A stretch of DNA of 64,000 nt, taken from Mesorhizobium tamadayense (lineage in GTDB: Bacteria > Pseudomonadota > Alphaproteobacteria > Rhizobiales > Rhizobiaceae). The notes beneath the pieces were generated by a model. It was given only the letters and a program-made list of their open reading frames with translations. It was not told the DNA's origin and did no database searches. Shown here in pieces: positions 10,549-45,627 of this stretch; the first letter of the stretch is position 1; every line of letters begins with the position of its first letter. The DNA is taken from the NCBI RefSeq assembly GCF_003863365.1, contig NZ_RQXT01000003.1, positions 186,001-250,000 on the forward strand, given 5' to 3'. The translations under genes were made by a program, and so were the position numbers.

Positions 10549-10557
10549 GCGACCGAA

Positions 10558-18511: not shown

Positions 18512-18648
18512 CAGCTCTGGCGTCAAGGTTTGGGCGGCGGGCATCGGCGGCGAGAGCATCGGAGACGCGCGTCCTCGCCGCCCTGGCAAAGACAATAAGC
18601 AAATTCAATCCGGCGCCTCGGCATGGCGCCAAGACGTGGGGAACCAAG

Positions 18649-19791: not shown

Positions 19792-19885
19792 ACCGACGAT
19801 AGCCGAAGCGAAGGCGGCTCAAGGCACAGCTGTCAGGGGGAGAAGCGGCGCGCCGACGAATCCGGGGACGTCCCGTCGGCGCTGC

Positions 19886-20684: not shown

Positions 20685-21938
20685 ATGACAAGACACTATT
20701 CAGCGCTTTCACTCTTCAAGGAAGGCGTCGCTGGCCAGACCGGTTGGGAAAAGGCCTGGCGTTCCCCCGATCCGAAACCGCGCTATGACGCCATCATCAT
20801 CGGCGGCGGAGGCCACGGCCTCGCCACGGCCTACTATCTCGCAAAGAACCACGGCGTCACCAACGTGGCATTGCTCGAGAAGGGCTGGATCGGCGGCGGC
20901 AACACCGGCCGCAACACCACCGTGGTGCGCTCCAATTACTTCTATCCCGAAAGCGCGGCGATCTACGGGCTGGCCCATAGCCTCTACAAGACGCTCTCGA
21001 AGGACTTGAACTACAATGTGATGTTTTCCGCGCGCGGCATCCTCACCCTTGCGCACAGCGAAGCGGGAATGGAGACCGCTGCAGGCAACGTCAACGCCAT
21101 CCAGGTCAACGGCATCGACTGCGAAATATTCTCGATCGAGGACGTGCGTCGCGTCGTGCCGATCTACAATTTCAGCCCGCATGCCCGCTATCCGGTCTAT
21201 GGCGGCACATGGCAGCCTAGCGGCGGCACCGCCCGACACGACGCCGTCGCCTGGGGCTACGCGCGCGCCGCCAGCCGTCTTGGCGTCGACATCATCCAGA
21301 ACTGCGAGATTACCGACTTCATCATCGAGAACGGACGCTGCCGCGGCGTCGTCACGTCGCGCGGCGAAATCCGCGCCGAGCGTACGGGCATGGCGGTGGC
21401 CGGCCATTCGTCGGTGCTGGCGGCGAAGGCGGGGTTTCGGCTGCCGGTCAATTCCTACGCGCTGCAGGCCTGCGTGTCCGAGCCGGTCAAGCCGATCCTC
21501 GACACGGTGGTGATCTCGCCGGACACCGGCGTCTATGTCAGCCAGTCCGACAAGGGCGAGCTGGTCATCGGCGGCGCGCTCGACCGCATCCCGTCTTATG
21601 GCCAGCGCGGCAACCTGCCGGTGCTGGAAGCCGTGATCGCCGGCATGCTCAACATGTTCCCGATCTTCGGCCAGTTGAAGATGATGCGGCAATGGGCGGG
21701 CATCGTCGATGTCGTCCCGGATTCCTCGCCGATCATCGGTGAATCGCCGCTGCCCGGCCTTTTCCTGAATTGCGGCTGGGGCACGGGCGGCTTCAAGGCG
21801 ATTCCCGCCGGCGGCACGCTGCTTGCCCATCTGCTTGCCACCGGCAGTCACCACGACATCAGCCGGCCGTTCGATCTCGACCGCTTCGCCCGCGGCCGGC
21901 TGATCGACGAGGCGGCCGGCTCCGGCATTGCCCACTGA
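20685..21938 (+). CDS. soxB: Sarcosine oxidase subunit beta
   Basis: The flavin subunit of heterotetrameric sarcosine oxidase, which demethylates sarcosine to glycine with transfer of the one-carbon unit to tetrahydrofolate. It has 417 residues from the ATG at 20685; an upstream GTG-type extension to 20589 lacks conserved sequence. The N-terminus YSALSLFKEGVAGQTGWEKAW is typical of the family. The FAD motif DAIIIGGGGHGLATAYYLAKNHG, the covalent-flavin region GRNTTVVRSNYFYPESAAIY, and the C-terminal NCGWGTGGFKAIPAGG all match. First gene of soxBDAG. Confidence 0.96.
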   Translation: MTRHYSALSLFKEGVAGQTGWEKAWRSPDPKPRYDAIIIGGGGHGLATAYYLAKNHGVTNVALLEKGWIGGGNTGRNTTVVRSNYFYPESAAIYGLAHSLYKTLSKDLNYNVMFSARGILTLAHSEAGMETAAGNVNAIQVNGIDCEIFSIEDVRRVVPIYNFSPHARYPVYGGTWQPSGGTARHDAVAWGYARAASRLGVDIIQNCEITDFIIENGRCRGVVTSRGEIRAERTGMAVAGHSSVLAAKAGFRLPVNSYALQACVSEPVKPILDTVVISPDTGVYVSQSDKGELVIGGALDRIPSYGQRGNLPVLEAVIAGMLNMFPIFGQLKMMRQWAGIVDVVPDSSPIIGESPLPGLFLNCGWGTGGFKAIPAGGTLLAHLLATGSHHDISRPFDLDRFARGRLIDEAAGSGIAH

Positions 21939-21952
21939 AGGTGTAGAAAAAG

Positions 21953-22222
21953 ATGCAGCTCTTTCCCTGTCCGTTCTGCGGGCCGCGCGAAGAAAGCGAA
22001 TTTCACTATGGCGGCGAGGCCGGCAACCTGAGGCCCGACGGCGGCGACGTGACGGCCGAGCGCTGGGCCGGCTATCTCCATATGCGCGACAATCCGAAGG
22101 GCCCGGGCCGCGAGATCTGGGTGCATCTGACTTGCGGCGAGTTCTTCGCGATGAGCCGCGACAGCGTCAATCACAAGGTCTCGGGTTCTTCCACGCTCGG
22201 CAAATCGGAGCACGGCGCATGA
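21953..22222 (+). CDS. soxD: Sarcosine oxidase subunit delta
   Basis: An 89-residue zinc-binding subunit of the heterotetramer. The metal site is visible as CPFCGPREESEFHYGG at the N-terminus and HLTCGEFF near residue 65. FAMSRDSVNHKVSGSSTLG is the conserved end. It starts 14 bp behind soxB, and its stop codon overlaps the soxA start (ATGA). Confidence 0.95.
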   Translation: MQLFPCPFCGPREESEFHYGGEAGNLRPDGGDVTAERWAGYLHMRDNPKGPGREIWVHLTCGEFFAMSRDSVNHKVSGSSTLGKSEHGA

Positions 22223-25101: not shown

Positions 25102-25618
25102 CCTTGCCGAAAAATGGCCGTCGGCGCCGGACTGGGCGACGGCGGTGCTAGACAAGGACGAGGTCAGCGTGCGCACGCTGGGCGGATTGAACCAGCTTTT
25201 GGTCAGCGGCGATCTGGCGGCCTGGGCGCTGGCATCCGGCCTCGCCGGCGAGGGCGTCGGAGCCGGCGCGGTTGCCAGCGGCGACAGCTACATGGTGCGG
25301 ATCGCACGCGATCGCGTTCTCGCCGTCGGCGAACAGGCGTTTCCCATCGCGGCCGGTTGGTATGAGGCCGGGTTCGCGGTCTCGGTCATGGATGCCGGGC
25401 TCCATGTGTTCGAGATCGAGGGGCCGGGCCTGGCCGGCCTGGTCGCCAGGGCCACGGCGCTCGATCCGGGGCAAGCCAGCCGTTCGGCTTCCGTGCTCTT
25501 TGCCGGCGTCAATGTCTTGTTCTACCGGTTCGGCAATGCCAATCGGGGGCGCCTCCACGTCGACCGCGGTTTCGCGCCTTACCTGTGGGAATGGCTCGAA
25601 CAATCATCAGGATTGTAG
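25094..25618 (+). CDS. soxG: Sarcosine oxidase subunit gamma
   Basis: 174 residues, last gene of soxBDAG, overlapping soxA by 8 bp. The gamma subunit resembles the folate-binding fold of aminomethyltransferases and completes the tetramer. Recognisable segments are the start RNLAEKWPSAPDW, ARDRVLAVGEQAF, and the C-terminal NRGRLHVDRGFAPYLWEWLEQ. Conservation in this subunit is low, so identification relies partly on position. Confidence 0.92.
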   Translation: MRNLAEKWPSAPDWATAVLDKDEVSVRTLGGLNQLLVSGDLAAWALASGLAGEGVGAGAVASGDSYMVRIARDRVLAVGEQAFPIAAGWYEAGFAVSVMDAGLHVFEIEGPGLAGLVARATALDPGQASRSASVLFAGVNVLFYRFGNANRGRLHVDRGFAPYLWEWLEQSSGL

Positions 25619-26413: not shown

Positions 26414-27022
26414 CTAAGCGGTCTTCATCGCATTGCAGATTTCTTCGACCAGCATTGCGGCCGAAACCGAGCCGGGGTCCGGATGGCCCAGCGAGCGCTC
26501 GCCGAGGCGCGCGGCGCGGCCGACGGTTGCGATCATGTCGCGTGTCGCTTCCGCACCCTGGCGGGCAGCGGCGGCTATGGCGTCGGCATCCTGGCCATCG
26601 ACTGCCGCGTCCGCGGCCGGAGCCCAGGCGTCGAGCATCGTCTTCTGGCCGGGTTCCGCCTTGCCGCGCTGCACGATGCCGTCGCGCATCGCCGCAATGA
26701 CGGTCCGCAACTCGCCGCTCGGCATCGATCCGCGCGGACCCGCGGCCTTACCGGCGCGCAGAAGGGCGGTCGCGTAGAGTGGCCCGGAGGAGGCGCCGAC
26801 CGCGTTGAGAAAGCCTTTGGCGGCGGCATTGAACACATCCTGCAGCGTGCCCTCGGCTGCCCGGGCTGCGTCGGCCGCTGCCTTCATGCCTTGTTCCATG
26901 GCGATGCCGTGGTCGGCGTCCCCGATCACCCCGTCAAGCGCGCAGAGCCTGTCGCGCTCGGTCGCCATTCGTACGGAGAAGGCGCCGAAAAGGGCTTTCA
27001 AATCCCCGGTCGTGAACTCCAT
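26414..27022 (-). CDS. dhaL: Dihydroxyacetone/tetrulose kinase subunit DhaL
   Basis: The nucleotide-binding subunit of a Dha-type kinase (202 residues). The conserved ADP and Mg site motif is GVIGDADHGIAMEQGM near the N-terminus, with SSGPLY and HPDPGSVSAAML further on. The ATG at 27022 is preceded by GGAG at a distance of 10 nt; a TTG at 27031 would overlap the dhaK stop. Together with DhaK it phosphorylates a ketose held covalently on DhaK. In this context the substrate is more likely L- or D-erythrulose than dihydroxyacetone. No PTS partner DhaM is present, so ATP is the expected donor. Confidence 0.88.
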   Translation of the reverse strand: MEFTTGDLKALFGAFSVRMATERDRLCALDGVIGDADHGIAMEQGMKAAADAARAAEGTLQDVFNAAAKGFLNAVGASSGPLYATALLRAGKAAGPRGSMPSGELRTVIAAMRDGIVQRGKAEPGQKTMLDAWAPAADAAVDGQDADAIAAAARQGAEATRDMIATVGRAARLGERSLGHPDPGSVSAAMLVEEICNAMKTA

Positions 27023-27027
27023 CGCGC

Positions 27028-28035
27028 TCAACTCCGGAACATGGCGCAGTCGCAGGGATGGTCGATCATGCGCTGCAATTCGTCATCGAGATGCATGATG
27101 GTGATCGACGCTCCGGCCATGTCGAGCGACGTGCAGTAGGGGCCGACAAGCGTCTTGTGAACGACGAGCCCAGCAGCCTTCAGGCGTTCCGCGATCCGGG
27201 CGTTCAGGATGTAGAGTTCCATCAGCGGCGTCGCGCCGAGCGAGTTGACCAGCATCGCGACACGATCGCCGGCCGGCGCCTTCATTTCCGCCAGGATCGC
27301 ATCCATGATCTCGTCGGCGACATCGTTGGCCGAACGCAATGGCCCGCGCCGCACGCCGGGCTCGCCATGGATGCCCATGCCGATCTCCATCTCGCCATCG
27401 GGAAGATCGAAGCTTGGTCGCCGCGTCTGCGGCAGGGAACAGGACGAGAGCGCCACACCCATGGTGAAGGTGCGGTCGTTGGCATGACGGGCGATCCGCT
27501 CCACTTCGTCCAGCGGCATCATCATGTCGGCGGCCGCACCCGCCGCCTTGAAGATGAACACGTTGCCGGCCACGCCGCGGCGCTTTTGCCGTTGGTCGCG
27601 CGGCGCCGACGCGATGTCGTCGGTGGTCAGCACCGTGCGGGCCTCGATGCCTTCCATCTCCAGCAGCTCGGCGGCCATGTCGAAGTTCATCACGTCGCCG
27701 GCATAGTTGCCATACATGAACAGGACGCCGGCGCCGCCGCTCGCGGCCATCGCCGCGTCGACCGCCGGCTGCGGAGGGGGCGAAGCGAAGACGTTGCCGA
27801 TCGCGGCGGCATCCGCCAGGCCCCTGCCGACATAGCCGAGGAAGGTCGGCTCATGGCCTGAGCCGCCGCCGATCACCAGCGCAACCTTGCCGGTCCGTGG
27901 ACCGTGCCTGGCGACGACCGCACGCGGCGCGTTGTCCGGACGCCAGAGATGCTCGGGATGCGCGGCCAGGATGCCGGCCAGCATTTCGTCGACCGCCGCA
28001 TTGCCGTCATTGATCAGCTTCTGCGTCAGGTTCAT
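27028..28035 (-). CDS. dhaK: Dihydroxyacetone/tetrulose kinase subunit DhaK
   Basis: The substrate-binding subunit (335 residues). The motifs IGGGSGHEPTF and GRGLADAAAIGNVFASPPP, then FMYGNYAGDVMNFDMA, belong to the DhaK family, as does TDDIASAPRDQRQKRRGVAGNVF. LGATPLMELYILN near the C-terminus is the usual substrate-pocket end. The ATG at 28035 is chosen because GGGAG is correctly spaced from it and not from the ATG at 28041. Characterised relatives in sugar-acid and tetritol pathways are L-erythrulose kinase (LerK) and D-erythrulose kinase (DerK); either fits the apionate context better than glycerol metabolism. Confidence 0.88.
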   Translation of the reverse strand: MNLTQKLINDGNAAVDEMLAGILAAHPEHLWRPDNAPRAVVARHGPRTGKVALVIGGGSGHEPTFLGYVGRGLADAAAIGNVFASPPPQPAVDAAMAASGGAGVLFMYGNYAGDVMNFDMAAELLEMEGIEARTVLTTDDIASAPRDQRQKRRGVAGNVFIFKAAGAAADMMMPLDEVERIARHANDRTFTMGVALSSCSLPQTRRPSFDLPDGEMEIGMGIHGEPGVRRGPLRSANDVADEIMDAILAEMKAPAGDRVAMLVNSLGATPLMELYILNARIAERLKAAGLVVHKTLVGPYCTSLDMAGASITIMHLDDELQRMIDHPCDCAMFRS

Positions 28036-28145
28036 TGGCATCTCCCTGCATGGTCCTCGACCATGAGACTAGAGCGTTTCGCGGCTGCGTGGAATCGTTC
28101 TTCTTCTGGTCCAGCCAAGGTCGCGAAGCGGGAAGTATCGAGGGG

Positions 28146-28601
28146 TCAGCGAGCGTTGTACTTGGCGTCGACTTGATCGATGGCGGCGACATTGCCGGCC
28201 GAGCGCCCCTTCGGATCGAATGTCTCCTTGAGGAAGGCATTGGCGATCGCCTTGGCCAGCTCAGGCCCGATCACCCGCGCGCCCATGGTGATGATCTGGG
28301 CATTGTTCGATAGCGCGGCGCGCTCGGCGGAGTAGGTGTCGTGGGTGAGCGCCGCGCGGATGCCAGGCACCTTGTTGGCCGAGATGCAGACGCCGATCCC
28401 CGTGCCGCAGATCAGGATGGCGCGGTCGTATTTGCCGGCCAGCACGTCGTTCGCGACGCGGTCGGACAGATTGGCGTAGAACGGGTCAGGGCCGGCTTCG
28501 GTGCGCGACACTTCCGACACCTCGTGCCTGTCCTTCAAATGGTCGGCCAGGACCCTGGCCAGGCCCTCGCCGGCGCTGTCTCCCGCAATTGCAAGCTTCA
28601 T
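28146..28601 (-). CDS. derI: RpiB-family isomerase, probable D-erythrulose-4-phosphate isomerase
   Basis: A 151-residue RpiB/LacAB-fold isomerase. [21 protein letters not shown] at the N-terminus holds the phosphate-binding aspartate, and [24 protein letters not shown] holds the catalytic cysteine region. Family members either interconvert ribose and ribulose 5-phosphates or, in tetrose and apionate clusters, convert D-erythrulose 4-phosphate to D-erythrose 4-phosphate. Location next to DhaK/L and the apionate genes favours the latter. The ATG at 28601 is preceded by GGAGAG; upstream in-frame codons are not conserved. Confidence 0.8.
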
Positions 28602-28762
28602 GACCTCTCCTTCATATTTTGGCGAAGCATAGGATGTCGAGATAGCCCTCAACCTGCCAGGCGGCACGTCCGATGAACAACCCGTCGATATGCGGGCATG
28701 CGATGAGTTCGGCGCAATTGTCCGACGCAGAGCCGAATGCGGGTGAGTACGGCACGGCGCTT

Positions 28763-30091
28763 TCACCCGCCGAGACCGTCACGGATGGCCGAGAAATAGC
28801 GATCGGTTCCGACCTGCCCGCCCTTCAGCGCCACCTCCAGCCCGTCGATCGCCTCGAAGCTCGAATGAGCCACACAAAGCGGCGAGCCGGGAGATGCCGG
28901 CAGCGGCATCCTGACCGTCAGCGCATCGACACCCATCTGGCCGAGCGCATGGCTCGACGTGTCGCCGCCGGCGATGATCACACGCTTTAACGTCTGGTCC
29001 ACCGTCAGCGCGCGAAGCAGTTCGCCGAGACCGCGGCCGAGCTTGTGGCGGGCGCCTTCCTGGCGGTCGATCTCGGCGCCGCGATCGGCCGTCGGGCCAA
29101 GCGCCGTATAAAGGATCACGCTGCGCCCGGCTTTCAGGCTGGCCTTGCCGGCCGCTGCGGCGCGCGCGATCGCGTTCTCGGAACGCTCCGAGACCAGCTC
29201 GAGCGGGTCGACCTCGATGCCGTCGAAACCGTCGCCCATCGCATGCCGGATCTGCCGTTCCGTCGTCGGCGAGCAGCTGCCCGACACCACCGCGATGCGG
29301 TCGGCGGCTCCCGGCGGCGGGAACACCCCGCTGCCCGGAGCGGTATCCCCCGCCCATTCGGAAAGCAGCGCATATTCGATGCCGGAGGAACCGACGACGA
29401 AGTGCCCGCCCGGCTTACGGCTGCGCCATATTTCCTTGCCGGCGAGCGCCTGCGTTTCGCGGCTGTCGACATCGATAAGCACGATGCTGCAGTCTCCGAG
29501 AAGGCGGTCCAGGGCGTCCGATCGCGACGGTGATTGCAGCGTCGCCAGGTCGAGCAGTCCCGAGGCCAGTTCCGTCTGACGTGACAGATGCACCAGGAGG
29601 TCGGCTTCATCCATCGGCGTCGCCGGGTGGCGGCTCATCACCGGGTGGCGATCGATGCGGTAGTATCTGTCGCGATAGGCCGCGAACAAATGGCCGAATG
29701 CGGTGTAGCGCTTGAGCTGCGGCGCGCCGACCACCAGCGGCACGCAGGCTTGCCCGAACACCGCGCGGCCGATCTCGATCGCCCGGCCGATGCTGCCGAT
29801 CGTCGGGCTGGAATCGAAGGTCGAGCAGACCTTGTAGTGGCAGATCTCGGCCTGCAGCGTCTTCAGCCAGGCGAAAGCCTCTTCAAGATGCGTGTCCATC
29901 CATTGCGGCGTTTCGCTGCGGCTGGTTCCGGCAAGCCCAACGGCACGGCAATGCGCGAAGCGTGCCATCAGTCCGGCATCCGGCTTGCGCATGAAAAGCA
30001 CGGTCGGCACGCCGCCGAGTTCCAGCGCTTCCATGACGTCGGTCGAGCCGGTGAGGTCGTCGCCATAATAGCTGAGGAGCAGGTCCTGCAT
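28763..30091 (-). CDS. oiaK: Four-carbon acid sugar kinase family (DUF1537), probable 3-oxo-isoapionate kinase
   Basis: 442 residues. The N-terminal domain opens with [20 protein letters not shown], the substrate-binding signature of the family. The C-terminal nucleotide-binding domain carries [17 protein letters not shown] and [13 protein letters not shown]. Members phosphorylate the terminal hydroxyl of C4-C5 keto-acid sugars. Here it lies 2 bp behind a RuBisCO-like protein gene, the pair known from D-apionate catabolism, where OiaK makes 3-oxo-isoapionate 4-phosphate. The ATG at 30091 overlaps nothing and begins the conserved region. Function is inferred from family and context. Confidence 0.85.
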
Positions 30092-30093
30092 GC

Positions 30094-31344
30094 TCAAGCC
30101 GCCTTGCCGTCGGCGAACTTCGCGATCGAGCGCGCCAGCTCGACATGGCTCCTGGCGAAGTCCTCGAGCGGAATGCCTTCGACCGCTGCCTGCCACGCCT
30201 GCTTAACGGCGCGCACGCCGGCGCCCGGCCCGTCCGGATGGCTGACGATGCCGCCGCCGCAGAGATAGAGGAGATCGACTGTGCGTCCCGTGCGCTCATA
30301 GGTCTCGGGCGCCTGTCCGCCCCACTGGCCGGAGCCCGCCACCGGCAGGGCGCAATCACCAGGCGAGAACAGCGGCGTCGTCACCGCCTCGAAGGAGCGG
30401 ATGAATGAGTCGTCCGGCTCCCAGTATTTCGAGGCGATGCCGTTGATCTGGAACTGGTCGACGCCGAGCAGCCGCCAGAACTGCTGCCAGACCTTGAAAT
30501 CCATGCCGAGGCCCGGATGGCGCGTGAGGATGTCCCAGCCGTTGCGATGCGCGTGCAGCACTAGGCCGGAGCGCTTCCTCAGGAACGCCATGCCGCCGAA
30601 GCCGATGGAGTTGATGTTGATGACCGCGCAATTGCCGCCGGCTTCAAGCACCAGATCGTGGTTGCGCATCATCTCGTCGGGATCGGCGTGCGAGATGCCG
30701 AAGGCGTACATCACCTTCTTGCCGGTCTTCTGCTCATGGTCGAGGATCAGCGGCATGATCGCCTTGACCCGCTCCGACAGCGGCGAATAGACCGGGCTCA
30801 TCAGCTTCTCGTCGTCCTTGATGAAATCGACACCGGCCTCGATCAGCTCGCCGACCATCCCGGCCGTCTCATGCGGCCTCAAACCCAGCGCCGGCTTGAC
30901 GATGGTGCCGATGATCGGGCGGCCCTCGACGCCAGTCAGCCTGCGGCTGCCGGCGACACCGAACTGCGGGCCGGGATGAGCGCCCCTGAATTCCTCCGGC
31001 AGCTTCATGTCGACGACGCGGATGCCGGACATGCCCCTGATCGAATAGGTGCCGCCGATCGCAATCGTCATCAGCGCCGCGAGATCGGTGCCGATCGCGT
31101 CGAACGGAAAGGCGATGTCGACGTCGGCGCGCCTGAAGGGACCGATGCCGCCCTCGGGTATCGAAGGTTGCGCCGCGTCCGGCAAATGCCGGATCGCCAG
31201 AACGCGCGCCGCCACCCGTGCCTTCAGCTCCTCGGTTTCCCCAGGCAACGCGACGAAGGTGCCGGTCGACTGGTCGCTGGCGATCTTGGCCGCCAGCGCC
31301 TCGATGCTCCCTGCGGTCTCGATGCGAAAGGTGAGGGTGATCAT
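30094..31344 (-). CDS. RuBisCO-like protein acting on 3-oxo-isoapionate 4-phosphate
   Basis: A 416-residue large-subunit-like protein of form IV. The active-site core is visible: GTIVKPALGLRP and GVDFIKDDEKLMSP, whose lysine is the carbamylated metal-binding residue in RuBisCO. HAHRNGWDI and the phosphate-binding GSGQWGGQAPETYER and CGGGIVSHPDG segments are also present. Family members in D-apionate pathways are either OiaX, which decarboxylates 3-oxo-isoapionate 4-phosphate to L-erythrulose 1-phosphate, or OiaT, which splits it to 3-phosphoglycerate and glycolate. The downstream isomerase and tetrulose kinase favour OiaX, but the sequence alone does not decide. It is the first gene of its transcription unit, 54 bp behind an operator-like site. 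Confidence 0.85.
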   Translation of the reverse strand: MITLTFRIETAGSIEALAAKIASDQSTGTFVALPGETEELKARVAARVLAIRHLPDAAQPSIPEGGIGPFRRADVDIAFPFDAIGTDLAALMTIAIGGTYSIRGMSGIRVVDMKLPEEFRGAHPGPQFGVAGSRRLTGVEGRPIIGTIVKPALGLRPHETAGMVGELIEAGVDFIKDDEKLMSPVYSPLSERVKAIMPLILDHEQKTGKKVMYAFGISHADPDEMMRNHDLVLEAGGNCAVININSIGFGGMAFLRKRSGLVLHAHRNGWDILTRHPGLGMDFKVWQQFWRLLGVDQFQINGIASKYWEPDDSFIRSFEAVTTPLFSPGDCALPVAGSGQWGGQAPETYERTGRTVDLLYLCGGGIVSHPDGPGAGVRAVKQAWQAAVEGIPLEDFARSHVELARSIAKFADGKAA

Positions 31345-31397
31345 GGCCGGCCGTACCCAGTCGAAAGGCAGGAAAAGAATTCCCTGCGCTCGAAATC

Positions 31398-31416
31398 TGG
31401 TATAATGAGTACATAA
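31398..31416. promoter_or_regulatory. Candidate GntR operator O1 (RuBisCO-like operon / gntR)
   Basis: TGGTATAATGAGTACATAA lies between the divergent RuBisCO-like gene and gntR. It aligns over most of its length with the site at 45383-45401 read on the opposite strand (TGGTATAATGTGTACCTGA). It also begins like the sites at 39672 and 40649. NanR-type members of this regulator family bind GGTATA repeats. Confidence 0.65.
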
Positions 31417-31530: not shown

Positions 31531-32244
31531 ATGAACCGTTCGGAACCGATCGTCCGGCGCAAGCTTTCCGACGAAGTCTTTGTCAGGCTGAAGCGGCTGA
31601 TCACCAGCGGCGAATTGCAGCCGGGCGACGACATGCCGTCCGAACGCGAACTGATGGAGCGCTTCGAGGTCGGCCGGCCGGCGATCCGTGAAGCGATGCA
31701 GGCGCTGAGCAACATGGGTCTCGTCGCCATCTCGCATGGCGAGCGCGCCAAGGTGCTGCAGCTCACCGCCAAGTCGATCATCAAGCAGGTCGACGGCGCC
31801 GCCAAGATCATCCTATCGTCGTCGAAGGACACACTCGAGCACCTGAAGAGCGCGCGCATCTTCTTCGAGCGCGGCATGGTCAGGGAAGCCGCCGAGAAGG
31901 CGACGCCCGAGGACGTGCAGCGGCTCAGGGCAACCGTCGCCGAGCAACGCGCCGCGCGCGGCGACGCCGAGGCGTTCATCTCCGCCGACATGCGATTCCA
32001 CACTCAGATCGCGGCGATTTCGGGCAATCCGATCTATGTCGCGGTCAGCGAAGCGATGCTCGGCTGGCTGAAGGAATATCATACCGAGATGCTGATCTGG
32101 ACCGGCAAGGAAAAGTTCACCCTGACCGAGCACGAGGAGATCATCGGCTGCATCGAGAAGAAGGATGCCGAAGGCGCCGAGAAGGCGATGATCAAGCACC
32201 TCGAACGCTCGCGCGCCCTCTACGTGATGAACTCCGGGAAGTAG
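31531..32244 (+). CDS. GntR/FadR-family regulator, probable controller of the apiose regulon
   Basis: 237 residues: an N-terminal winged helix (KLSDEVFVRLKRLITSGELQPGDDMPSERELMERFEVGRPAIREAMQALSNMGLV) and a C-terminal FCD ligand domain. FCD metal-ligand-type histidines and acids appear in DMRFHTQIAAISGNP and LTEHEEIIGCIEKKD. It resembles NanR more than other FadR-type proteins. It is transcribed divergently from the RuBisCO-like operon and convergent with apnL, in the middle of the apionate genes. Four sites with TGGTAT stand before the four neighbouring minus-strand units, so it is the natural candidate to bind them. Confidence 0.87.
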   Translation: MNRSEPIVRRKLSDEVFVRLKRLITSGELQPGDDMPSERELMERFEVGRPAIREAMQALSNMGLVAISHGERAKVLQLTAKSIIKQVDGAAKIILSSSKDTLEHLKSARIFFERGMVREAAEKATPEDVQRLRATVAEQRAARGDAEAFISADMRFHTQIAAISGNPIYVAVSEAMLGWLKEYHTEMLIWTGKEKFTLTEHEEIIGCIEKKDAEGAEKAMIKHLERSRALYVMNSGK

Positions 32245-32250: not shown

Positions 32251-34155
32251 TCAGCCGATCCTGGCTATGGCATAGGCCGGCATCGTCAGGCGTCCTGAAG
32301 CTGCGCCTGGGTCGAGCCTGCGCGCACCCGCTCCGTCCCAGATCGTGACCGGAGCTGCCGCTCCGCGAACTAGCGCCGAGGCGTCGACGGGCACGTCGTC
32401 CGCGGTGATGTTTGCCAGCCAGGCTGTGACGGCGCCGGTTGGCGAGCGGCCCGCCAGCGCGGCCACGCGATCGTCGCTGACGCCCGCAGCGATATGCGCA
32501 TGGCCGGCCAGCGCGGCGAGGCCTTGCACCGCGTGGAAGATCGGCCGAGGCGTTCCTTCCTCGGCGGATTCGCTAGCTGCCGCCAGCACGCCGAACGGCC
32601 CCGTGAAGCTGGAGAGCGTCAGCATCTCCAGCCCGGCCGGCGCCACGCGCGCGGCATAGCCGATCGTCCAGGCGGCAGCGAACAAACCGGCATGGCGCGG
32701 ATCGAGATTGGCCATGGCAATGCGCTGGCCGCGAAAATTCTCCTTGGTCGCGCCGCCATAGGGGTTCTGCCGCATGGCGATGGTCGAGGGTCCGATGCGA
32801 TAGGGCTTCGCTCCGTAGATCGCCCGTGTCGACTGGGTGATGAAAGGCAGCGCCTCCAGCGATTGCATGACGCTAAGATCGTCGGCGGCGTGCACGATCG
32901 GACAGGTGCAGTGGGTGACGAAATCAAGCAAACCGGCGGGAACGCGCTTACGGTTGAGCTCGGTGAAATAGCTGAACATGCCGCCGCCGAGCCGGATGCC
33001 GGGGAAGGCGCGGCGGGCTGCGGCGTAGACATCTTCTAACGGCGGACAAGCCGGCCAGACGCTGCCGGGCGGCGTCGACTGGCGGTCGACCGAAGGTGAG
33101 ACCGCGATGGCATCGAATCTCAAGCCTGCCCGGCGCGCCATCTCGGCAATGTCCGAGAGTTCAATGTCGAGATCGCCGGCGCAAGCGACGACGCATTCGA
33201 GGGTCGTCTTGGCGGGGAACCCGGCGGCTAGTTCGGCATGAGCCCGCAAGGCATCAAGGCCGTGGCCACGCGTCGGGTCGTAATGGAGGAGAAGCTGCTG
33301 CGGGCCAAGCTCAGACAGCAGCGGTAGTTCGTGCAAAGCCGCCTCGACATCCTCCGGATAAATGACCGCACCGACATCGGGCAGCTTCGCTCCGGTCTCG
33401 CCGGGCTCGATGCGGACCGGCTCGGCGCCGGTTGTCGCGGCAGTCACCTGGGAGTCGCCGGTGATGCGCAAGGTGATGGTCTGGCGCATCGGCTGGCCGA
33501 CCGGCAGCACATAGGGCCAGGGCAGAGCGAGAGGCCGCACATAGGTCTTGTAGGAAGCATCGGACCAGTTGCGCTGGTCTTCCATCTCGAACGTGTCGCC
33601 TTCCATCCGGCATTCGGCTCTGACGCCTGGACGGACCTGATGGGTGATGGCGCGCATATCCTTGAAGGGCTGCCAGGGGTCGATCAGCAGCGGCAGTTTC
33701 GTGTCCATCACGCTGCCATCGGTATGCTCGACCTTGACCGCGCTGCCGGCGAGGCCGGCGATCGGATGCAGGATGCAGAAGCCGCAGCGATTGGTCTCGA
33801 AATCGCTTTCGGGCAGCGCGCTCACATCGAAACTGAGACGGCCGTCGGCATCGCCCTCGATCTTGGCGCCAAAGCCGAGCCGGCTTCCGCCCGGTCCTTC
33901 GCAGCGTGCCGAGTAGCGCACCGAGAAACTGTCATCGCTCTGTTCGATGACCAGATCCTCCAGCGCCAGCTCGTAGGTGCCCCAGTCACGATCGCGCACG
34001 ATATAGGCGATGGCGCGCAGCACCTCGATGCCGCCATGCCGGATGGTGCGCAGATTGCCGTTGACGAAATCGGCGCTGAGCAGGCCGGCGCTGAGCCGAA
34101 CCGGTTCGGCGTCGACCGCGTGCGTGCCGCAGAGGAGGAAGGGATCTTTGGTCAT
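32251..34155 (-). CDS. apnL: D-apionolactonase
   Basis: A 634-residue protein that would hydrolyse D-apionolactone, the ApsD product, to D-apionate. The start is the ATG at 34155, sharing one base with the apsD stop (TAATG). The frame is open upstream only as a shadow of apsD. Visible stretches are the N-terminal beta-rich part (LSADFVNGNLRTIRHGGIEVLRAIAYIVRDRDWGTY is conserved in look) and a middle TIM-barrel-like part. The latter includes LLLHYDPTRGHGLDALR, RLGGGMFSYFTELNRKRVP and FVTHCTCPIVHAADD. Assignment rests on the apsD-apnL pairing and on length. The family is small, so context carries much of the weight. Confidence 0.83.
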   Translation of the reverse strand: MTKDPFLLCGTHAVDAEPVRLSAGLLSADFVNGNLRTIRHGGIEVLRAIAYIVRDRDWGTYELALEDLVIEQSDDSFSVRYSARCEGPGGSRLGFGAKIEGDADGRLSFDVSALPESDFETNRCGFCILHPIAGLAGSAVKVEHTDGSVMDTKLPLLIDPWQPFKDMRAITHQVRPGVRAECRMEGDTFEMEDQRNWSDASYKTYVRPLALPWPYVLPVGQPMRQTITLRITGDSQVTAATTGAEPVRIEPGETGAKLPDVGAVIYPEDVEAALHELPLLSELGPQQLLLHYDPTRGHGLDALRAHAELAAGFPAKTTLECVVACAGDLDIELSDIAEMARRAGLRFDAIAVSPSVDRQSTPPGSVWPACPPLEDVYAAARRAFPGIRLGGGMFSYFTELNRKRVPAGLLDFVTHCTCPIVHAADDLSVMQSLEALPFITQSTRAIYGAKPYRIGPSTIAMRQNPYGGATKENFRGQRIAMANLDPRHAGLFAAAWTIGYAARVAPAGLEMLTLSSFTGPFGVLAAASESAEEGTPRPIFHAVQGLAALAGHAHIAAGVSDDRVAALAGRSPTGAVTAWLANITADDVPVDASALVRGAAAPVTIWDGAGARRLDPGAASGRLTMPAYAIARIG

Positions 34156-35186
34156 TAGAGCAGGTCGTCGATCCGCACCGGTTGCCGGCTGGCGGCACCG
34201 GCATAGGCGGCCTCGACCAGCGCGAAAGTCTTGAGATTGTCGGCGCCGGACGTCGCCGGCTCCTTGGCCGTCGTCAGGCAGTCGACCCAGTGCTTCTGGA
34301 TCGCAACGACGCTTTCCTGGATGTTGTGCCAGGGCCGCGACGCCCAGGAAAGCAGCGGCGGCGAGACGTCGCTGACCGTGGTGCCGCTCTTGCCGGTAAC
34401 CGTGAGTTGGTAGCCCTGCGCCAGCCGGATCGTGCCGTCGCTGCCGTCGAGCTCGATCAGCGTCTCGGGGAACGGCTCGGCGGCAAGCTTCGTCGCATAG
34501 CTGCAATCGACCATAGAGGTGGCGCCGCCCTCATGGTCCATGAGCATCGTTGCCACGTCCTCGCCGGAGATGCCGGGGTTGACGCGTGCGGTGCGCGCGG
34601 TGAGGTTCGAAACATCGCCGAGCAGGAAGCGGGCGATGTCGAGGATATGGATGCCGAGATCCTCGATGATGAAGCGCTTGCCCGTCGCCAGGTAAGGCTG
34701 CCCGGAAAACACGTCATAGGCCGACCGGAACGAGATGCGTCCGAAGAACGGCCTGCCGATCTCGCCGCAGTCGAGCACGGCGCGCACCGCCTGGATCGGC
34801 GACTGCCAGCGAAAGTTCTCGTGCACCATCAGCGGCACGCCGGCGTCGGCGCAGGCCTTCACCATGGCCTTGGCGTCGGCAAGCGTCGGCGCGAATGGTT
34901 TTTGGCAGATTGCCGGAACGCGGTGCGCGGCCGCCATCTCGACCAGCGGCCGATGGCTGCCGACGGTGGTCGCGATGTCGACGAAGTCGAGCGTCTCGCC
35001 TTCAAACAGCGCAGCCGCATCGGTGTAGCGCCGCTCGATGCCGAACTGGTCGCCGACGATCCTGAGTCGCGCGGGGTCGCGGTCGCAGATCGCCATGATC
35101 GAAGCGCCGTCGATGTCGTGCCAGGCATGCATCTGGTTGACGGCGAAGAAGCCGCAGCCGATCAGCGCTCCGCGCAATTCCGCCAT
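34155..35186 (-). CDS. apsD: D-apiose dehydrogenase (Gfo/Idh/MocA family)
   Basis: A 343-residue NAD(P)-dependent dehydrogenase that would oxidise D-apiose to D-apionolactone. The Rossmann motif is ALIGCGFFAVNQMHAW. The usual EKP catalytic stretch reads CQKPFAP, so the lysine is kept but the glutamate is glutamine. The second active-site segment is EDLGIHILDIARFLLGD. The ATG at 35186 follows the permease stop by 2 bp, so apsD is the penultimate gene of the transporter-apsD-apnL operon. Specificity is inferred from the neighbourhood. Confidence 0.87.
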   Translation of the reverse strand: MAELRGALIGCGFFAVNQMHAWHDIDGASIMAICDRDPARLRIVGDQFGIERRYTDAAALFEGETLDFVDIATTVGSHRPLVEMAAAHRVPAICQKPFAPTLADAKAMVKACADAGVPLMVHENFRWQSPIQAVRAVLDCGEIGRPFFGRISFRSAYDVFSGQPYLATGKRFIIEDLGIHILDIARFLLGDVSNLTARTARVNPGISGEDVATMLMDHEGGATSMVDCSYATKLAAEPFPETLIELDGSDGTIRLAQGYQLTVTGKSGTTVSDVSPPLLSWASRPWHNIQESVVAIQKHWVDCLTTAKEPATSGADNLKTFALVEAAYAGAASRQPVRIDDLL

Positions 35187-35188: not shown

Positions 35189-36253
35189 TCAGCCCGCCTT
35201 CGCCATCTGCATCAGCGTCACGCGGCTCTGCAGCCGGCGCTGCGCCTGGTCGACGACGACCGCGACGATGATGACGAGACCCTTGATCACCATCTGCCAG
35301 AACGAGCTCACCCCCATCATCACCAGCCCGTCGGAAAGGATGCCGATGACGAAGGCGCCAACGATCGTGCCGCCAATCGTGCCACGGCCGCCCGACATCG
35401 ATGTGCCGCCGAGCACGGCGGCTGCGATGGCGTTGAGCTCGAAGCTCTCGCCTGTCGCCGGGTGCGAGGCCATCAGCTCGGACGAGATGATGAGGCCGAC
35501 GATCGCCGCGCAGAAGCCGGAGAACATGTAGACGAACATCTTCACCATGTTGACCCGCACACCCGAGATCCGCGCCGCGCGCTCGTTGCCGCCGACCGCG
35601 AAGATGTGCCGTCCGAGCGGCGTGTACCTGGCGAGATAGGCAGCGCCCAGCGCCACCATCATGAGGATCCATATCGAGACCGGCAGGCCGAGCAGCCGGC
35701 CGGCGCCGAGATAACCGAAGCCGGTGGTGCCGAGGTCCGGCTTGCCGACGAGGTTGGGGAAGGTGCGGCCGTCCGACGACAAAAGCGCAAGGCCGCGCGC
35801 GACATAAAGTGTCCCGAGCGTGGCGATGAAGGGCGCGACGTTGAGCCTGGTGATCAGCAACCCGTTGACGGCACCGATCAGTATGCCGACGCCAAGCGTG
35901 ATGAGGGCGATCTCGACGACGTTGAAATAGACGGTGTAGCCGAATTGCAGGTCGATGCCATTGAGCACGAGATAGCCGGCGACCATGCCGCACAGGCCGA
36001 CGATCGAGCCGACCGACAGGTCGATGCCGCCGGTGATGATGACGAAGGTCATGCCCATGGCGAGGAAGGCATTCAGCGCGACGTGCTTGGCCATCAGGAT
36101 CAGATTGGCGGCCGACAGGAAGTTGGGCGCCGCGATCGAGAAGAAGACCAGCACGGCGATCAACGCGATGAAGGTCCTAAGCTTCATCAGCGTCAGCAGC
36201 ACGGAGCCGCTGGATGTGGGTGGCGCGGCAGCCTTGGCTGGAATGTCGGTCAT
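35189..36253 (-). CDS. Sugar ABC transporter permease (CUT2), apiose system
   Basis: 354 residues with about nine to ten hydrophobic segments and the RbsC-type signature GMTFVIITGGIDLSVGSIVGLCGM. The cytoplasmic EAA-like segment GGNERAARISGVRV is also visible, as is AVLGGTSMSGGRGTIGGT. It would form the inner-membrane channel of a D-apiose importer. It overlaps the ATPase gene by 4 bp (ATGA), which fixes the start at 36253. Confidence 0.92.
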   Translation of the reverse strand: MTDIPAKAAAPPTSSGSVLLTLMKLRTFIALIAVLVFFSIAAPNFLSAANLILMAKHVALNAFLAMGMTFVIITGGIDLSVGSIVGLCGMVAGYLVLNGIDLQFGYTVYFNVVEIALITLGVGILIGAVNGLLITRLNVAPFIATLGTLYVARGLALLSSDGRTFPNLVGKPDLGTTGFGYLGAGRLLGLPVSIWILMMVALGAAYLARYTPLGRHIFAVGGNERAARISGVRVNMVKMFVYMFSGFCAAIVGLIISSELMASHPATGESFELNAIAAAVLGGTSMSGGRGTIGGTIVGAFVIGILSDGLVMMGVSSFWQMVIKGLVIIVAVVVDQAQRRLQSRVTLMQMAKAG

Positions 36254-37797
36254 CGGCGTTGCTCTCCGTGCACGGGTCCATGGCCAAGCGCCGATGCCGC
36301 GACGATCGCCGCTTCCGTCGCCTCGGCGCGTTCGAACATGCCCGTCAGCTTTCCGTTGCTCATCACCGCGATCCGGTCGGACAGCGCCATCACCTCGTCG
36401 AGATCCGAGGTGGCGAAGAGGATGCCCAGCCCATCGCGCGAAAGCTTGCGCATGGTGCGGAAGACATCGGCCTTGGCGCCGACATCGATGCCGCGGCTGG
36501 GCTCGTCCATCAAAAGCACCTTCGGCCCGGTGAGCAGCGCCTTGCCGATCACAACCTTCTGCTGGTTGCCGCCCGACAGCGACGAGACTTCCTGCGCCGG
36601 GTCGGCAACCTTGATTGCCAGCTCGCGCACCATTTGCGTGACGGCCTGCCACTCGGCGCCGCCACGGATATGAAACAGGCTGACGAAGCGCGACAGGCTG
36701 GCCAACGTCAGGTTGCTGGCGACGGACAGGATCGACACCAGTCCCTCGCGCTGCCTGTCTTCCGGGATCAGCGCCAGGCCGCGCCGGATGCGTCGCGCCG
36801 TGTCGCGCTCCTTGACCTGCTTTCCGTCGATGAAGATCCTGCCGCTTGCCTGGCCGTGGCGGCCCATGATGCAGTCGAACAGCTCGCTGCGTCCGGCGCC
36901 CATCAATCCGTAGATGCCGAGGATCTCGCCAGCGCGCAAGGAGAGCGAGACATGGTCGACCGCAAGTCCGCCGGTGACGCGGGGCAGGCAGATTTCCTCG
37001 GCGCGGAACACCTCGTCACCTGGGACATGGCCGTCGGCCTTGGCGAAATCCTTGGCGTCGGAGCCGATCATCTGCCGCACGATCCACTGCGTGTCGACGT
37101 TGCGCATCTGCTCCTGGCCGGTGATGCGACCGTCGCGAAGCACGGTGATGTAGTCGCCGATGCGGATCAGCTCTTCCAGCCGGTGCGAGATGTAGACGAT
37201 CGCCACGCCGCGCGCCTTGAGGTCGGCGATCACCTTGAACAGGATCTCGACTTCCGCCGCGCTCAGCGCCGAGGTCGGCTCGTCCATGATCAGGATGCGC
37301 GCGTCAAGCGAGACCGCCTTGGCGATCTCGACCAACTGCTGCTGGCCGATGCGCAGGTCCTCGACCAGCATGTCGGGTCTTATGCCGGCTTCGAGCTGTT
37401 CCAGGAATTCGGCGGCGCGCCGTTCCTGCTCCCTGTGGTCGATCTTGCGGAAGGCGTTGGTCAACTCGCGCGTGGCAAAAATGTTCTCGGCGACCGAGAG
37501 ATTGCCGAACAGGTTCAGCTCCTGGAACACCATGCCGATGCCGCGGCCGACGGCGTCTCCCGACGATGAGAACGAAACCTCGTTGCCGTCGAGCAGGATG
37601 CGGCCCGCGGTCGGCTGCTCGACGCCGGCGATGATCTTCATCAGCGTCGACTTTCCCGCGCCGTTCTCGCCGACGAGCACGTTGACCGCGCCCTTGCGCA
37701 CCTCGAATTTCGCATGCTTGACCGCAACGGTGCCGGCATAGACCTTGGAGATATCCTCCAGCTTCAGGATGACGTCGTGACCGGGCGAGGAACTCAT
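36250..37797 (-). CDS. Sugar ABC transporter ATP-binding protein (CUT2), apiose system
   Basis: 515 residues with two ABC domains as in RbsA. Domain 1 has Walker A GENGAGKST, signature LRIGQQQLVEIAKA and Walker B ILIMDEPTSAL. Domain 2 has the degenerate P-loop GLMGAGRSE normal for this class, signature LSGGNQQKVVIGKAL and VLLMDEPSRGIDVGAK. It overlaps both neighbours by 4 bp. It energises the importer encoded by the flanking permease and binding-protein genes. Confidence 0.94.
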   Translation of the reverse strand: MSSSPGHDVILKLEDISKVYAGTVAVKHAKFEVRKGAVNVLVGENGAGKSTLMKIIAGVEQPTAGRILLDGNEVSFSSSGDAVGRGIGMVFQELNLFGNLSVAENIFATRELTNAFRKIDHREQERRAAEFLEQLEAGIRPDMLVEDLRIGQQQLVEIAKAVSLDARILIMDEPTSALSAAEVEILFKVIADLKARGVAIVYISHRLEELIRIGDYITVLRDGRITGQEQMRNVDTQWIVRQMIGSDAKDFAKADGHVPGDEVFRAEEICLPRVTGGLAVDHVSLSLRAGEILGIYGLMGAGRSELFDCIMGRHGQASGRIFIDGKQVKERDTARRIRRGLALIPEDRQREGLVSILSVASNLTLASLSRFVSLFHIRGGAEWQAVTQMVRELAIKVADPAQEVSSLSGGNQQKVVIGKALLTGPKVLLMDEPSRGIDVGAKADVFRTMRKLSRDGLGILFATSDLDEVMALSDRIAVMSNGKLTGMFERAEATEAAIVAASALGHGPVHGEQRR

Positions 37798-38456
37798 GGC
37801 TTCGGCCCGATCTCGGCCTCCGCCGGCGTCACCAGCGGCAGGTTCTGGGCGCTTTCGATCGTGTAGGCGCCGAGCACCTTGGCGGTCCGGCCCTCCAGCC
37901 CGTCGCGCGACAGCTTGGACAGCACCATCTTGTCGGCATAGGCGTTGAAGGCCTTGCCGAACTGGGCGAAGTCGATCTGGTTGGTGAAGTCGTTGAACTG
38001 CACGAAATCCAGGCTGTCGCGAATGGCGGTTCCGCGCATCGCCGGCCCGATCTGCACCCGCGCATCCGCCTTGCCGTCGCCATCGACGTCGACATCGATG
38101 GTTGCCGCGCGCGACTGCGTGTTGGCGGCGATTATCTTGCCTTCGACGCGCACCGCGAAGGTCCACGGCGAATTCGCCTGCTTCTTCGGATTGCCGTATT
38201 TTGCGCCGGCGGCGGCTGGATCGGTCTTCGCCAGCGCATGGACTTCGGCAAACGGCCCAGCCTTCTGCTGCAGATAGGGGATGACCTTCGAGGCCCAGAT
38301 ATCCTTGACCCTCTTGTCGGGATTGAAGGCCGAACTGTTGTCGCTACCGCCGCCTTGCGCCGATGGCGTCGGCAGTATTTTGCAGGCGCTCAGGCTGAGG
38401 CCTGCGAGCGCGGCAAGGGGCAGCCCAAGAGTCAGCCAGGTCAACTTGTTCGGCAT
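37794..38456 (-). CDS. DUF2291 lipoprotein of the apiose transporter operon
   Basis: A 220-residue predicted lipoprotein. The N-terminus has a signal peptide with lipobox LSAC at the end of LALAGLSLSAC. The body contains FAVRVEGKIIAANTQSRAATIDVDVDGDGKADARVQIGPAMRGTAIRDSL in overlapping pieces, with a calcium-loop-like acidic stretch. Proteins of this family accompany CUT2 sugar transporters in alphaproteobacteria; their role is not established. It lies between the binding-protein and ATPase genes and overlaps the latter by 4 bp. Confidence 0.85.
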   Translation of the reverse strand: MPNKLTWLTLGLPLAALAGLSLSACKILPTPSAQGGGSDNSSAFNPDKRVKDIWASKVIPYLQQKAGPFAEVHALAKTDPAAAGAKYGNPKKQANSPWTFAVRVEGKIIAANTQSRAATIDVDVDGDGKADARVQIGPAMRGTAIRDSLDFVQFNDFTNQIDFAQFGKAFNAYADKMVLSKLSRDGLEGRTAKVLGAYTIESAQNLPLVTPAEAEIGPKP

Positions 38457-38490
38457 GGCGGTCAAAAAGCACTCGGATAATGAAATGGAG

Positions 38491-38520
38491 GCGAGGGACG
38501 AACGAGCGTTCGCCCCTCGC
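38491..38520 (-). promoter_or_regulatory. Stem-loop behind the apiose binding-protein gene
   Basis: GCGAGGGACGAACG pairs with CGTTCGCCCCTCGC across a 2-nt turn, with one mismatch, 19 bp behind the stop codon. There is no U-tract, so it is more likely an mRNA-stabilising or attenuating hairpin. It would let the binding protein outnumber the membrane parts. Confidence 0.6.
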
Positions 38521-38538
38521 AGCTTCGATCGCGCCGAC

Positions 38539-39588
<1,050 letters not shown>

Positions 39589-39671
39589 TTATCCGAACCT
39601 GGCCTCGCTGCCGGTCCCGCCATCCTCCTCCGCTCGTCCCAGCAATCCGAGCCTGGACAGCTAAAGCTAAC

Positions 39672-39690
39672 TGGTATGATGAGTCAATCA
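39672..39690. promoter_or_regulatory. Candidate GntR operator O2 (apiose transporter operon)
   Basis: TGGTATGATGAGTCAATCA lies 192 bp upstream of the binding-protein start and 76 bp behind the apnO stop. It shares TGGTATxATGAGT with O1 and TGGTATGAT with O3. The rest of the 285-bp gap holds no gene. Confidence 0.6.
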
Positions 39691-39765: not shown

Positions 39766-40593
39766 TCAGGTGATGCGCTGGATGCTGGCTGCGATCTCCT
39801 CCGGCTCGAAAACGCGCTTCCAGTCGTCGCGCATCAGCACCGGCTTGCCGAATTCGATCGCCTTGTTGCAGGCGTCCGAGAACACGCCCTTGGTTTCGCC
39901 GAAGATGACGGCTCCGAGCACGTTCATGTGGCCGAGCAGGAAGTCGAGCGCCGCCTGCCGGTCGACGCCGCGCGCCACGACCTCGTCGAGGGCTTCCTTC
40001 ATGACGACGAGCAGCGAGGCGCAAACCGTTTCCGAAAGGCCGGGCTCGAGCAGCGCCATCTGCTCGACGGTGACCCGATGCGAGCGCATCACCGGCGCCC
40101 AGATGATCCGGGCGATCTCCTCGCCCTTGGCGTAGTCTTCCTCCGGACCCTGCATCAGGGCGCTGACGAAATGCTGCTTGGCCTTGACGCCGCCGAAGAA
40201 GTCCTTCTTGGCCGCCATGTCGGTCTCGTCGTTGAAGATCGGCGGATGGCAAGGATGGGTGACGAAGTAGGTCAGGTCCGAACGCTTGGGCAGATGACCG
40301 GCAAAGGGCGCCGCGGCATCGAGCACAATGACCATCGTACCCGGCGCCAGCTTGCTTTCGATGCTGGCCGCCACCTTGCCGATATGTGTATCGGGAACGG
40401 CCAGGATGACCACGTCGGCGCCCGCGAGCGCCTCGTCGACGCTAAAGGTGTCGATGCCGAGCCCGGTCTTCAGCCGCTCCTTGCCCGCTTCGCTGATCTC
40501 GACATGGCGGATTGTGTAAGGCGACCCGCGAAAGTTGGTCGACAGGCGGTAACCCATTTTTCCGCCGGCACCGAACAGCGCAATCGTTGTCAT
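39766..40593 (-). CDS. apnO: D-apionate oxidoisomerase
   Basis: A 275-residue enzyme with an N-terminal Rossmann fold (IALFGAGGKMGYRLSTNFRGS) and a 6-phosphogluconate-dehydrogenase-like helical C-terminus. Conserved features are VILAVPDTHIGKVA, FVTHPCHPPIFNDE and LEPGLSETVCASLL. It would oxidise and isomerise D-apionate to 3-oxo-isoapionate, feeding OiaK. It stands alone between two ABC operons, with an operator-like site 56 bp upstream of its ATG. Assignment combines fold, size and presence of apsD, apnL and oiaK. Confidence 0.85.
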   Translation of the reverse strand: MTTIALFGAGGKMGYRLSTNFRGSPYTIRHVEISEAGKERLKTGLGIDTFSVDEALAGADVVILAVPDTHIGKVAASIESKLAPGTMVIVLDAAAPFAGHLPKRSDLTYFVTHPCHPPIFNDETDMAAKKDFFGGVKAKQHFVSALMQGPEEDYAKGEEIARIIWAPVMRSHRVTVEQMALLEPGLSETVCASLLVVMKEALDEVVARGVDRQAALDFLLGHMNVLGAVIFGETKGVFSDACNKAIEFGKPVLMRDDWKRVFEPEEIAASIQRIT

Positions 40594-45310: not shown

Positions 45311-45627
45311 AGCTATTTTCCTCCCAACGAACGACTGGCTTGAAGCCCTCGGCACAGCGCATCTGCTGACGATGACGCTATGTCAGGTACACATTATACC
45401 AGCATACCAAATAGGCAAGCGCTTTGCTGGTCTGGTCGCGTAGCCGCTCGATGGAAGGAAATCCGCTGCGCATGGCATTCTGTGAAGCGCGGCCGCAGGC
45501 ACCGGTGTGTGCCCTGGATCGGCCGAATTGACGCATTCCGGTCTTCCGCATTGGCGCGAAGCAATCACGGTTGCGATGACGCGGCACTGGATAGCGGCGA
45601 GGTCGCGGGGACGACCCAGTCCGGATT
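45311..45627. other. Intergenic region upstream of the second sugar transporter operon
   Basis: 317 bp between the binding-protein start and the end of the PotA-like gene. It contains operator candidate O4 at 45383-45409. The rest shows no gene-like frame or clear terminator. Confidence 0.5.
45383..45409. promoter_or_regulatory. Candidate GntR operator O4 (second sugar transporter operon)
   Basis: On the minus strand, TGGTATGC is followed by TGGTATAATGTGTACCTGA, so TGGTAT occurs twice as a direct repeat 8 bp apart. The second part also reads as the dyad TGGTA-N7-TACC. The position is about 75-100 bp upstream of the binding-protein ATG. Best match to O1. Confidence 0.7.

Follow-up and report, generated by a model that had tools for sequence, protein, structure and literature searches.

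The stretch analysed here (the window) comprises 64,000 nucleotides of contig C222 of Mesorhizobium tamadayense, whose genome of 7.5 Mb is 99.97% complete, and carries on its minus strand a putative D-apiose operon transcribed in the order oiaX, oiaK-like kinase, derI, dhaK and dhaL. The oiaX gene (30094..31344) encodes a RuBisCO-like protein predicted to act as 3-oxo-isoapionate-4-phosphate decarboxylase (equivalog model NF042437: 780.9 bits, cut-off 700), with a KDDE motif at residues 176–179 to which the metal-lysine role is assigned. It is followed by a kinase resembling 3-oxo-isoapionate 4-kinase (28763..30091; SBD_N and NBD_C domains, best match NF042436), by derI for a predicted D-erythrulose-4-phosphate isomerase of the RpiB family (28146..28601; NF051858: 258.5 bits, cut-off 240), and by dhaK (27028..28041; Dak1 domain, PF02733, 406.5 bits) and dhaL (26414..27031; Dak2 domain, PF02734; TIGR02365: 171.4 bits, cut-off 138.3), whose products are proposed to form an erythrulose kinase. 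These gene calls (RuBisCO-like OiaX, RpiB/DerI, DhaK and DhaL in one operon) had already been made in a preliminary sequence-only reading, and the profile scores uphold them. All five remaining genes are intact and, compared with a congeneric operon (L163) that retains lerI, the gene for L-erythrulose-1-phosphate isomerase, they are under purifying selection (ratio of nonsynonymous to synonymous substitution rates, dN/dS: OiaX 0.091, OiaK 0.133, DerI 0.061, DhaK 0.077, DhaL 0.118). We consider it very probable that this is a D-apiose operon of the known OiaX type from which lerI has been deleted, and that the LerI step is served by a copy on another contig, C178. In the pathway that we propose, D-apiose would be oxidised and opened to D-apionate by ApsD and ApnL, and ApnO would convert D-apionate to 3-oxo-isoapionate; OiaK would phosphorylate the latter and OiaX decarboxylate it to L-erythrulose 1-phosphate, from which LerI would make D-erythrulose 4-phosphate and DerI D-erythrose 4-phosphate. 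A strain with ApnL, ApsD, ApnO, OiaK and OiaX genes, LCG007, grows on D-apiose, according to PMC11747546.

The trace of the missing gene lies between the kinase gene and derI. This gap measures 161 bp in the window (28602–28762). Where lerI is present, it was measured at three loci as 833, 828 and 833 bp, with L056 and L163, which both give 833 bp, representing one operon; in the congener concerned (G105) the intact order is oiaX-oiaK-lerI-derI-dhaK-dhaL. Inside the 161-bp gap we found the 3' end of lerI (28611..28720, minus strand): positions 28719–28630 encode a segment 93% identical to residues 219–248 of a congeneric LerI (tblastn E-value 4.9e-13), a blastn comparison of the gap with another congener gave an E-value of 8.5e-37, and the remnant is also seen in the alignment. 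The 5' edge of this fossil is at 28720, while its low edge, the end of its reading frame, was set by eye. Approximately the last 30 codons are all that remains of lerI in the apiose operon, which has no intact copy of the gene. Because the fossil sits where the congener has the intact gene, we conclude that lerI was deleted in place; judging from the sequence comparison, a net deletion of ~670 bp has removed everything except the last ~30 codons. An assembly error could mimic such a deletion, and the contigs of three relatives do end inside lerI copies at the same residue, so that the gene can be awkward to assemble. Against an artefact stand the divergence of the only other LerI match in the genome, which shares 68% identity with the LerI encoded in the congener's apiose operon, the continuation of both contigs, and a different scar in Mesorhizobium hawassense; we regard an assembly error as extremely improbable. 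In the literature covered by our search, which left most subscription journals outside, neither a lerI fossil nor the loss of LerI from an apiose operon was found described; a paper on apiose in E. coli (PMC13001218) has no bearing on OiaX.

Searches of the whole genome revealed two matches to the TIM family only, one on C134 and one on C178, a contig separate from C222. The earlier statement that the window contains no TIM-like isomerase thus holds in that both matches lie outside it, and fails in that the 3' remains of one are found at 28602–28762; the accompanying suggestion that the missing genes lie elsewhere is borne out for LerI by this search. The C134 protein exceeds the cut-off of the triose-phosphate isomerase (TPI) model TIGR00419 (156.7 against 130.6 bits), and its gene adjoins a secG-like gene. 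Genes of the eryA, eryB and eryC types (names assigned by reading the sequence) and a second derI (252.6 bits, cut-off 240) share an operon with the C178 gene. The solved chain closest to its product is 11ef, named L-erythrulose-1-phosphate isomerase (375.6 bits), the next one, a TPI, reaching 193 bits; more generally, LerI-type proteins score at least 237 bits and TPI-type proteins at most 179, the sole protein in between being a divergent one from genome G087 (182 bits). A role of the C178 protein as the housekeeping TPI was considered; the closest solved chain and the operon context speak against it, despite its TPI name in NCBIfam. The presence of this gene is thus an observation; that it now most likely supplies the LerI step of the apiose pathway is what we infer. 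LerI and DerI together were functional in E. coli, according to PMC10733421. The LerI proteins encoded at L040:9731-10495 (minus strand) and L056:2645-3409 (plus strand) score 404 and 419 bits against the TPI equivalog model NF000722 (cut-off 293), against which the C134 TPI reaches 186. Since LerI passes this model, it is prone to be named TPI, as has happened in Rhizobium etli NXC12, and annotations of this kind should be read with caution. Contig C178 also carries, at 4000–22000 (L042), a form I-like RuBisCO (PF00016) and Calvin-cycle-type genes and, a few kb further, an apparent PQQ (pyrroloquinoline quinone)-type alcohol dehydrogenase, according to our reading of open reading frames (ORFs).

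The distribution of LerI agrees with a need for it wherever OiaX occurs. In an order-wide sample of 397 genomes, 26 have OiaX (a score over the model cut-off) and 57 have LerI (E-value ≤ 1e-62). LerI is present in 25 of the 26 OiaX genomes, in none of the 41 genomes that possess only a lower-scoring class of RuBisCO-like proteins (363.5–487.7 bits), and in 32 of the remaining 330, among which we counted all genomes with RuBisCO-like matches below 363 bits as well as G103, in which a contig starts with a fragment of a RuBisCO-like protein (167 residues, 189 bits) and LerI is present. If that fragment belongs to the lower-scoring class, G103 is an exception to the absence of LerI there. The nearest named relatives with this OiaX belong to Mesorhizobium. 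The named loci considered here are the 80 best among 541 that were confirmed, and so represent the closest ones and not the full set. LerI was found in 76 of the 79 named genomes searched (46/49 and 30/30; L166 was left out), and the three misses (L155, L157 and L167) turned out to be carriers of a lerI cut by contig ends. Within the 80 named stretches, lerI lies in the oiaX operon in 10 (cut by a contig end in three of these) and elsewhere in 29, 16 of which also display EryA-, EryB- or EryC-type genes; one stretch has a remnant only, and in 40, some of them short, none was found. One of these 40, L154, comes from a genome that has lerI-derI-dhaK-dhaL after oiaK on another contig (L234). In some OiaX genomes (e.g. 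G105, G015 and G286) the single LerI match is in or beside the oiaX cluster. No searchable OiaX genome is clearly without LerI.

The same data bear on the nature of the RuBisCO-like protein itself. An OiaT-type transcarboxylase/hydrolase yields 3-phosphoglycerate and glycolate; were the protein in the window of this type, LerI would be unneeded and derI, dhaK and dhaL would serve another purpose. Both kinds of RuBisCO-like protein act on the same substrate, as noted in PMC6302742. The score of 780.9 bits against the OiaX model argues for a decarboxylase, the 26 genomes over the cut-off spanning 757.8–791.0 bits and the next match reaching 487.7; so do the presence in the same operon of DerI, whose substrate is a tetrulose phosphate, and the fact that LerI tracks the OiaX class and not the lower-scoring one. 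We therefore hold an OiaT-type activity to be very unlikely. The lower-scoring class itself presumably represents OiaT-type enzymes without need for LerI, a label that fits the neighbours seen in the five loci of this class that we read: an OiaK-like kinase is nearby in all five and an ApnO-like gene in three. In G105, a second RuBisCO-like protein of the lower class (427.8 bits) is encoded next to an ApnO-like gene, ~16 kb from OiaX (at 0.6 kb in L055, G105:C1:76001-96000).

Loss of lerI from the apiose operon has occurred more than once in Mesorhizobium. In M. hawassense (L153) the operon lerI is gone too, and the remnant is shorter and cut differently from that in the window. In M. waimense (L169) a degraded 5' remnant of lerI was detected by blastn (157 bp, 72%). 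In a tree of OiaX and OiaK with 49 rows (built without L154, L192, L196, L198, L205 and L213), the window pairs with L167 (support 96/89), in which lerI is present as far as the contig end, whereas L153 belongs to a different subclade (99/97) that also includes strains with lerI and within which its exact position is not settled, and L169 occupies a third place. The scars need three changes on this tree, two of which are forced by well-supported branches. Because both breakpoint and tree position differ between the window and L153, their losses appear to be separate, and we count at least two independent deletions, unless lerI has been regained. The erythritol-type operon of M. hawassense, which lies on the same contig as its apiose operon, has both LerI and DerI. 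The derI gene beside its lerI scar (L153:12691 onward) is out of frame near the C-terminus and shows a dN/dS of 0.232 against the derI of the window; both isomerases of the apiose operon may be decaying in this species. In L155, L157 and L167, lerI begins twice, once behind oiaK and once within or facing an erythritol-type operon, and contig ends cut both copies at the same residue. This pattern, together with L270–L272, suggests that near-identical lerI copies have been exchanged between the apiose and the erythritol-type operons.

Further genes of the predicted pathway lie 5' of oiaX. A divergent regulator of the GntR/FadR type (31531..32244, plus strand; NF003011: 359.8 bits, cut-off 260; PF00392 and PF07729) is followed, all on the minus strand, by apnL for a predicted D-apionate lactonase (32251..34155; NF049900: 927.8 bits, cut-off 750), which like OiaX and DerI passes a curated cut-off, by a Gfo/Idh/MocA oxidoreductase gene (34155..35186; PF01408, PF22725), by a ribose-type ATP-binding cassette (ABC) transporter (35189..39480) composed of permease, ATPase, DUF2291 protein and binding protein (PF13407), and by a gene for an ApnO-like D-apionate oxidoisomerase (39766..40593; PGDH_C domain PF16896, 241.1 bits). 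The names of the permease, the ATPase and the DUF2291 protein come from ORF reading and from an annotated relative (L269), and those of ApsD for the oxidoreductase and of ApnO for the PF16896 protein are our assumptions from context. Next to the apiose genes, at 17713–25618, ORF reading indicates a peroxiredoxin-like gene and an apparent sarcosine-oxidase-type operon. Upstream of oiaX we noticed the sequence TACTCATTATACCAG (31397..31411, minus strand, 0 mismatches), which recurs 5' of the binding-protein gene (39671..39685, minus strand, 2 mismatches) and 5' of a second sugar ABC system (45388..45402, plus strand, 1 mismatch). In the 80 named loci it is found 5' of oiaX in 76 cases exactly, including a copy at 5135 in L192 that was added by eye (oiaX has another coordinate there), and in four with one mismatch. 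From its position, TACTCATTATACCAG is a candidate operator of the GntR-type regulator.

Several observations weigh against the favoured explanation as a whole. The putative operator is absent from the erythritol-type stretch on C178 (0 matches at ≤3 mismatches) and from the 14 other erythritol-type stretches scanned. In that stretch of C178 an EryD homologue was not found, and NCBIfam gives no ery name to its genes: the EryB-type protein scores above the cut-offs of models for glycerol-3-phosphate dehydrogenase, the EryA-type protein passes none and the EryC-type protein has no match. Nor does a curated model name the isomerase LerI, its NCBIfam matches being to TPI models only (NF000722: 404.2 bits, cut-off 293). 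The kinase of the window misses the cut-off of the OiaK model (461.7 against 700 bits), though this is its best model and the match is near full length; because of this score we call it OiaK-like and not OiaK. The 26th OiaX genome, G087, has instead of LerI a divergent TIM gene within its oiaX cluster. Finally, the co-occurrence figures rest on at most four candidates scored per genome in the OiaX search and at most six in the LerI search, and the associated Fisher P-values (1.6e-17 for 25/26 versus 0/41; 8.5e-23 versus all others) overstate the evidence, the genomes being related and the samples overlapping (G105 and L163 represent the same operon). As to the kinases, the NCBIfam cut-off may be set too high for proteins as divergent as those of such operons, and the counterpart in R. 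etli is annotated merely as a four-carbon acid sugar kinase. The TIM gene of G087 (L045:10239-11450), with GTGWKMNH in place of GTSWKMNK, is almost as distant from LerI as TPIs are, and possibly represents a second kind of isomerase for the LerI step.

Because the erythritol-type operon has no apiose operator, we are left with a regulatory puzzle: LerI would be outside the apiose operator regulon, yet needed during growth on apiose. Basal expression may provide enough LerI, an intermediate common to both pathways may induce the erythritol-type operon, or OiaX may partly bypass the step. The last possibility is related to the new shortcut considered in the sequence-only reading. OiaX might give D-erythrulose 4-phosphate directly, the enediol being protonated at the other carbon or the product re-enolised, and LerI would then be dispensable in the scarred operons. 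Such a reaction is chemically conceivable, as the 2,3-enediol formed after decarboxylation is the enediol through which LerI would work; a RuBisCO-like protein of Rhodospirillum rubrum catalyses an isomerisation, according to a title cited in PMC6302742. The loss of the in-operon lerI on more than one occasion, with the spare LerI outside apiose operator control, also speaks for it, and a bypass of this kind would, if true, explain why lerI was deleted repeatedly in this setting. It is opposed by the absence of any searchable OiaX genome clearly devoid of LerI and by the genomes whose sole LerI is in or beside the oiaX cluster. Since LerI co-occurs almost perfectly with OiaX, the known route through OiaK, OiaX, LerI and DerI is preferred to a shortcut, which is not needed as an explanation; that a shortcut makes LerI dispensable we judge very unlikely, and it seems equally improbable that OiaX of the scarred operons releases D-erythrulose 4-phosphate as some or all of its product, with the operon LerI only a helper. 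The apparent gap in the pathway probably reflects the deletion of a gene of which a second copy exists elsewhere, and not new chemistry.

The sequence-only reading had also proposed that DhaK/DhaL takes a second substrate, which we find plausible. DhaK falls below both dihydroxyacetone-kinase cut-offs (TIGR02363: 381.6 against 406.25 bits; NF011049: 456.8 against 492), its gene is present in 44 of the 80 stretches around oiaX in the named set, and it also occurs near LerI where OiaX is lacking. At the LerI loci of 20 of the 32 genomes with LerI and without OiaX over the cut-off (three of these stretches being short of the set length), a DhaK homologue lies within ~8 kb in seven and none was seen in 13; with three Dak1 genes in the 7.5 Mb genome, adjacency to LerI by chance is expected to be far rarer. 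In a tree, the DhaK proteins linked to LerI or OiaX group apart from the dihydroxyacetone kinases of contig C78, i.e. the protein is distant from the other such kinases of the genome, with a warning of long branches. On that contig (C78:95000-113000, L038), the neighbours of a sugar ABC transporter are a second DhaK, an enzyme-I-like protein, a DhaL and a fusion of DhaK with DhaL. An ordinary dihydroxyacetone kinase that happens to have entered the operon, with no role in tetrulose metabolism, would account for the Dak1 and Dak2 domains, for a DhaL above its own equivalog cut-off, for the fact that the solved structures matched are dihydroxyacetone kinases, and for the 13 LerI loci at which DhaK was not seen; it would leave the 44 oiaX stretches, the seven loci of OiaX-negative genomes and the separate grouping in the tree without a reason, and we find it possible but rather doubtful. 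DhaK/DhaL is probably an erythrulose kinase, which would most likely return free erythrulose to L-erythrulose 1-phosphate. Free erythrulose could be imported or, from chemical considerations, could form when 3-oxo-isoapionate, a beta-keto acid, decarboxylates spontaneously. Because free erythrulose could arise in these other ways, the presence of DhaK/DhaL does not require the decarboxylase OiaC, a member of the PF01261 family. Of 26 PF01261 matches across the genome, a single one falls on the contig of the window (window positions 2297–2869), in a gene that we take to be for L-rhamnose isomerase.

Now that both the remnant of lerI and its probable substitute have been located, the apparent gap in the pathway can be closed, and the data suggest that two pathways meeting at L-erythrulose 1-phosphate trade and share isomerases. 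D-apiose is reportedly catabolised via OiaK and the RuBisCO-like decarboxylase OiaX in the route of Carter et al. 2018. The locus resembles that route in that genes for ApnL, an ApsD-like enzyme, an ApnO-like enzyme, an OiaK-like kinase, OiaX and DerI are found together with a sugar ABC transporter, and differs from it in that the operon lerI is a fossil, with the full gene on another contig, and in that dhaK and dhaL belong to the operon. Erythritol catabolism (eryA-B-C-H-I) has the LerI and DerI steps in common with the operon of the window, if, as we assume, EryH equals LerI and EryI equals DerI; it starts from erythritol and is separately regulated. The five genes eryA-eryB-eryC-eryH-eryI give E. 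coli growth on erythritol, as reported in PMC10190533. The apiose cluster of plasmid pRetNXC12e of R. etli NXC12 (L269) likewise contains genes for OiaX, a kinase, RpiB, a phosphogluconate-dehydrogenase-like protein, ABC components, a Gfo/Idh/MocA protein, DhaK and DhaL, with a "hypothetical protein" in the place of ApnL; unlike the window, it has an intact TIM gene, annotated as triose-phosphate isomerase, between the kinase gene and rpiB, and the remaining order differs. A close parallel within the genus is the apiose operon of Mesorhizobium sp. B2-4-3 (G105, L056/L163), which has the same gene order and an OiaX 92% identical to that of the window, and in which lerI is intact.

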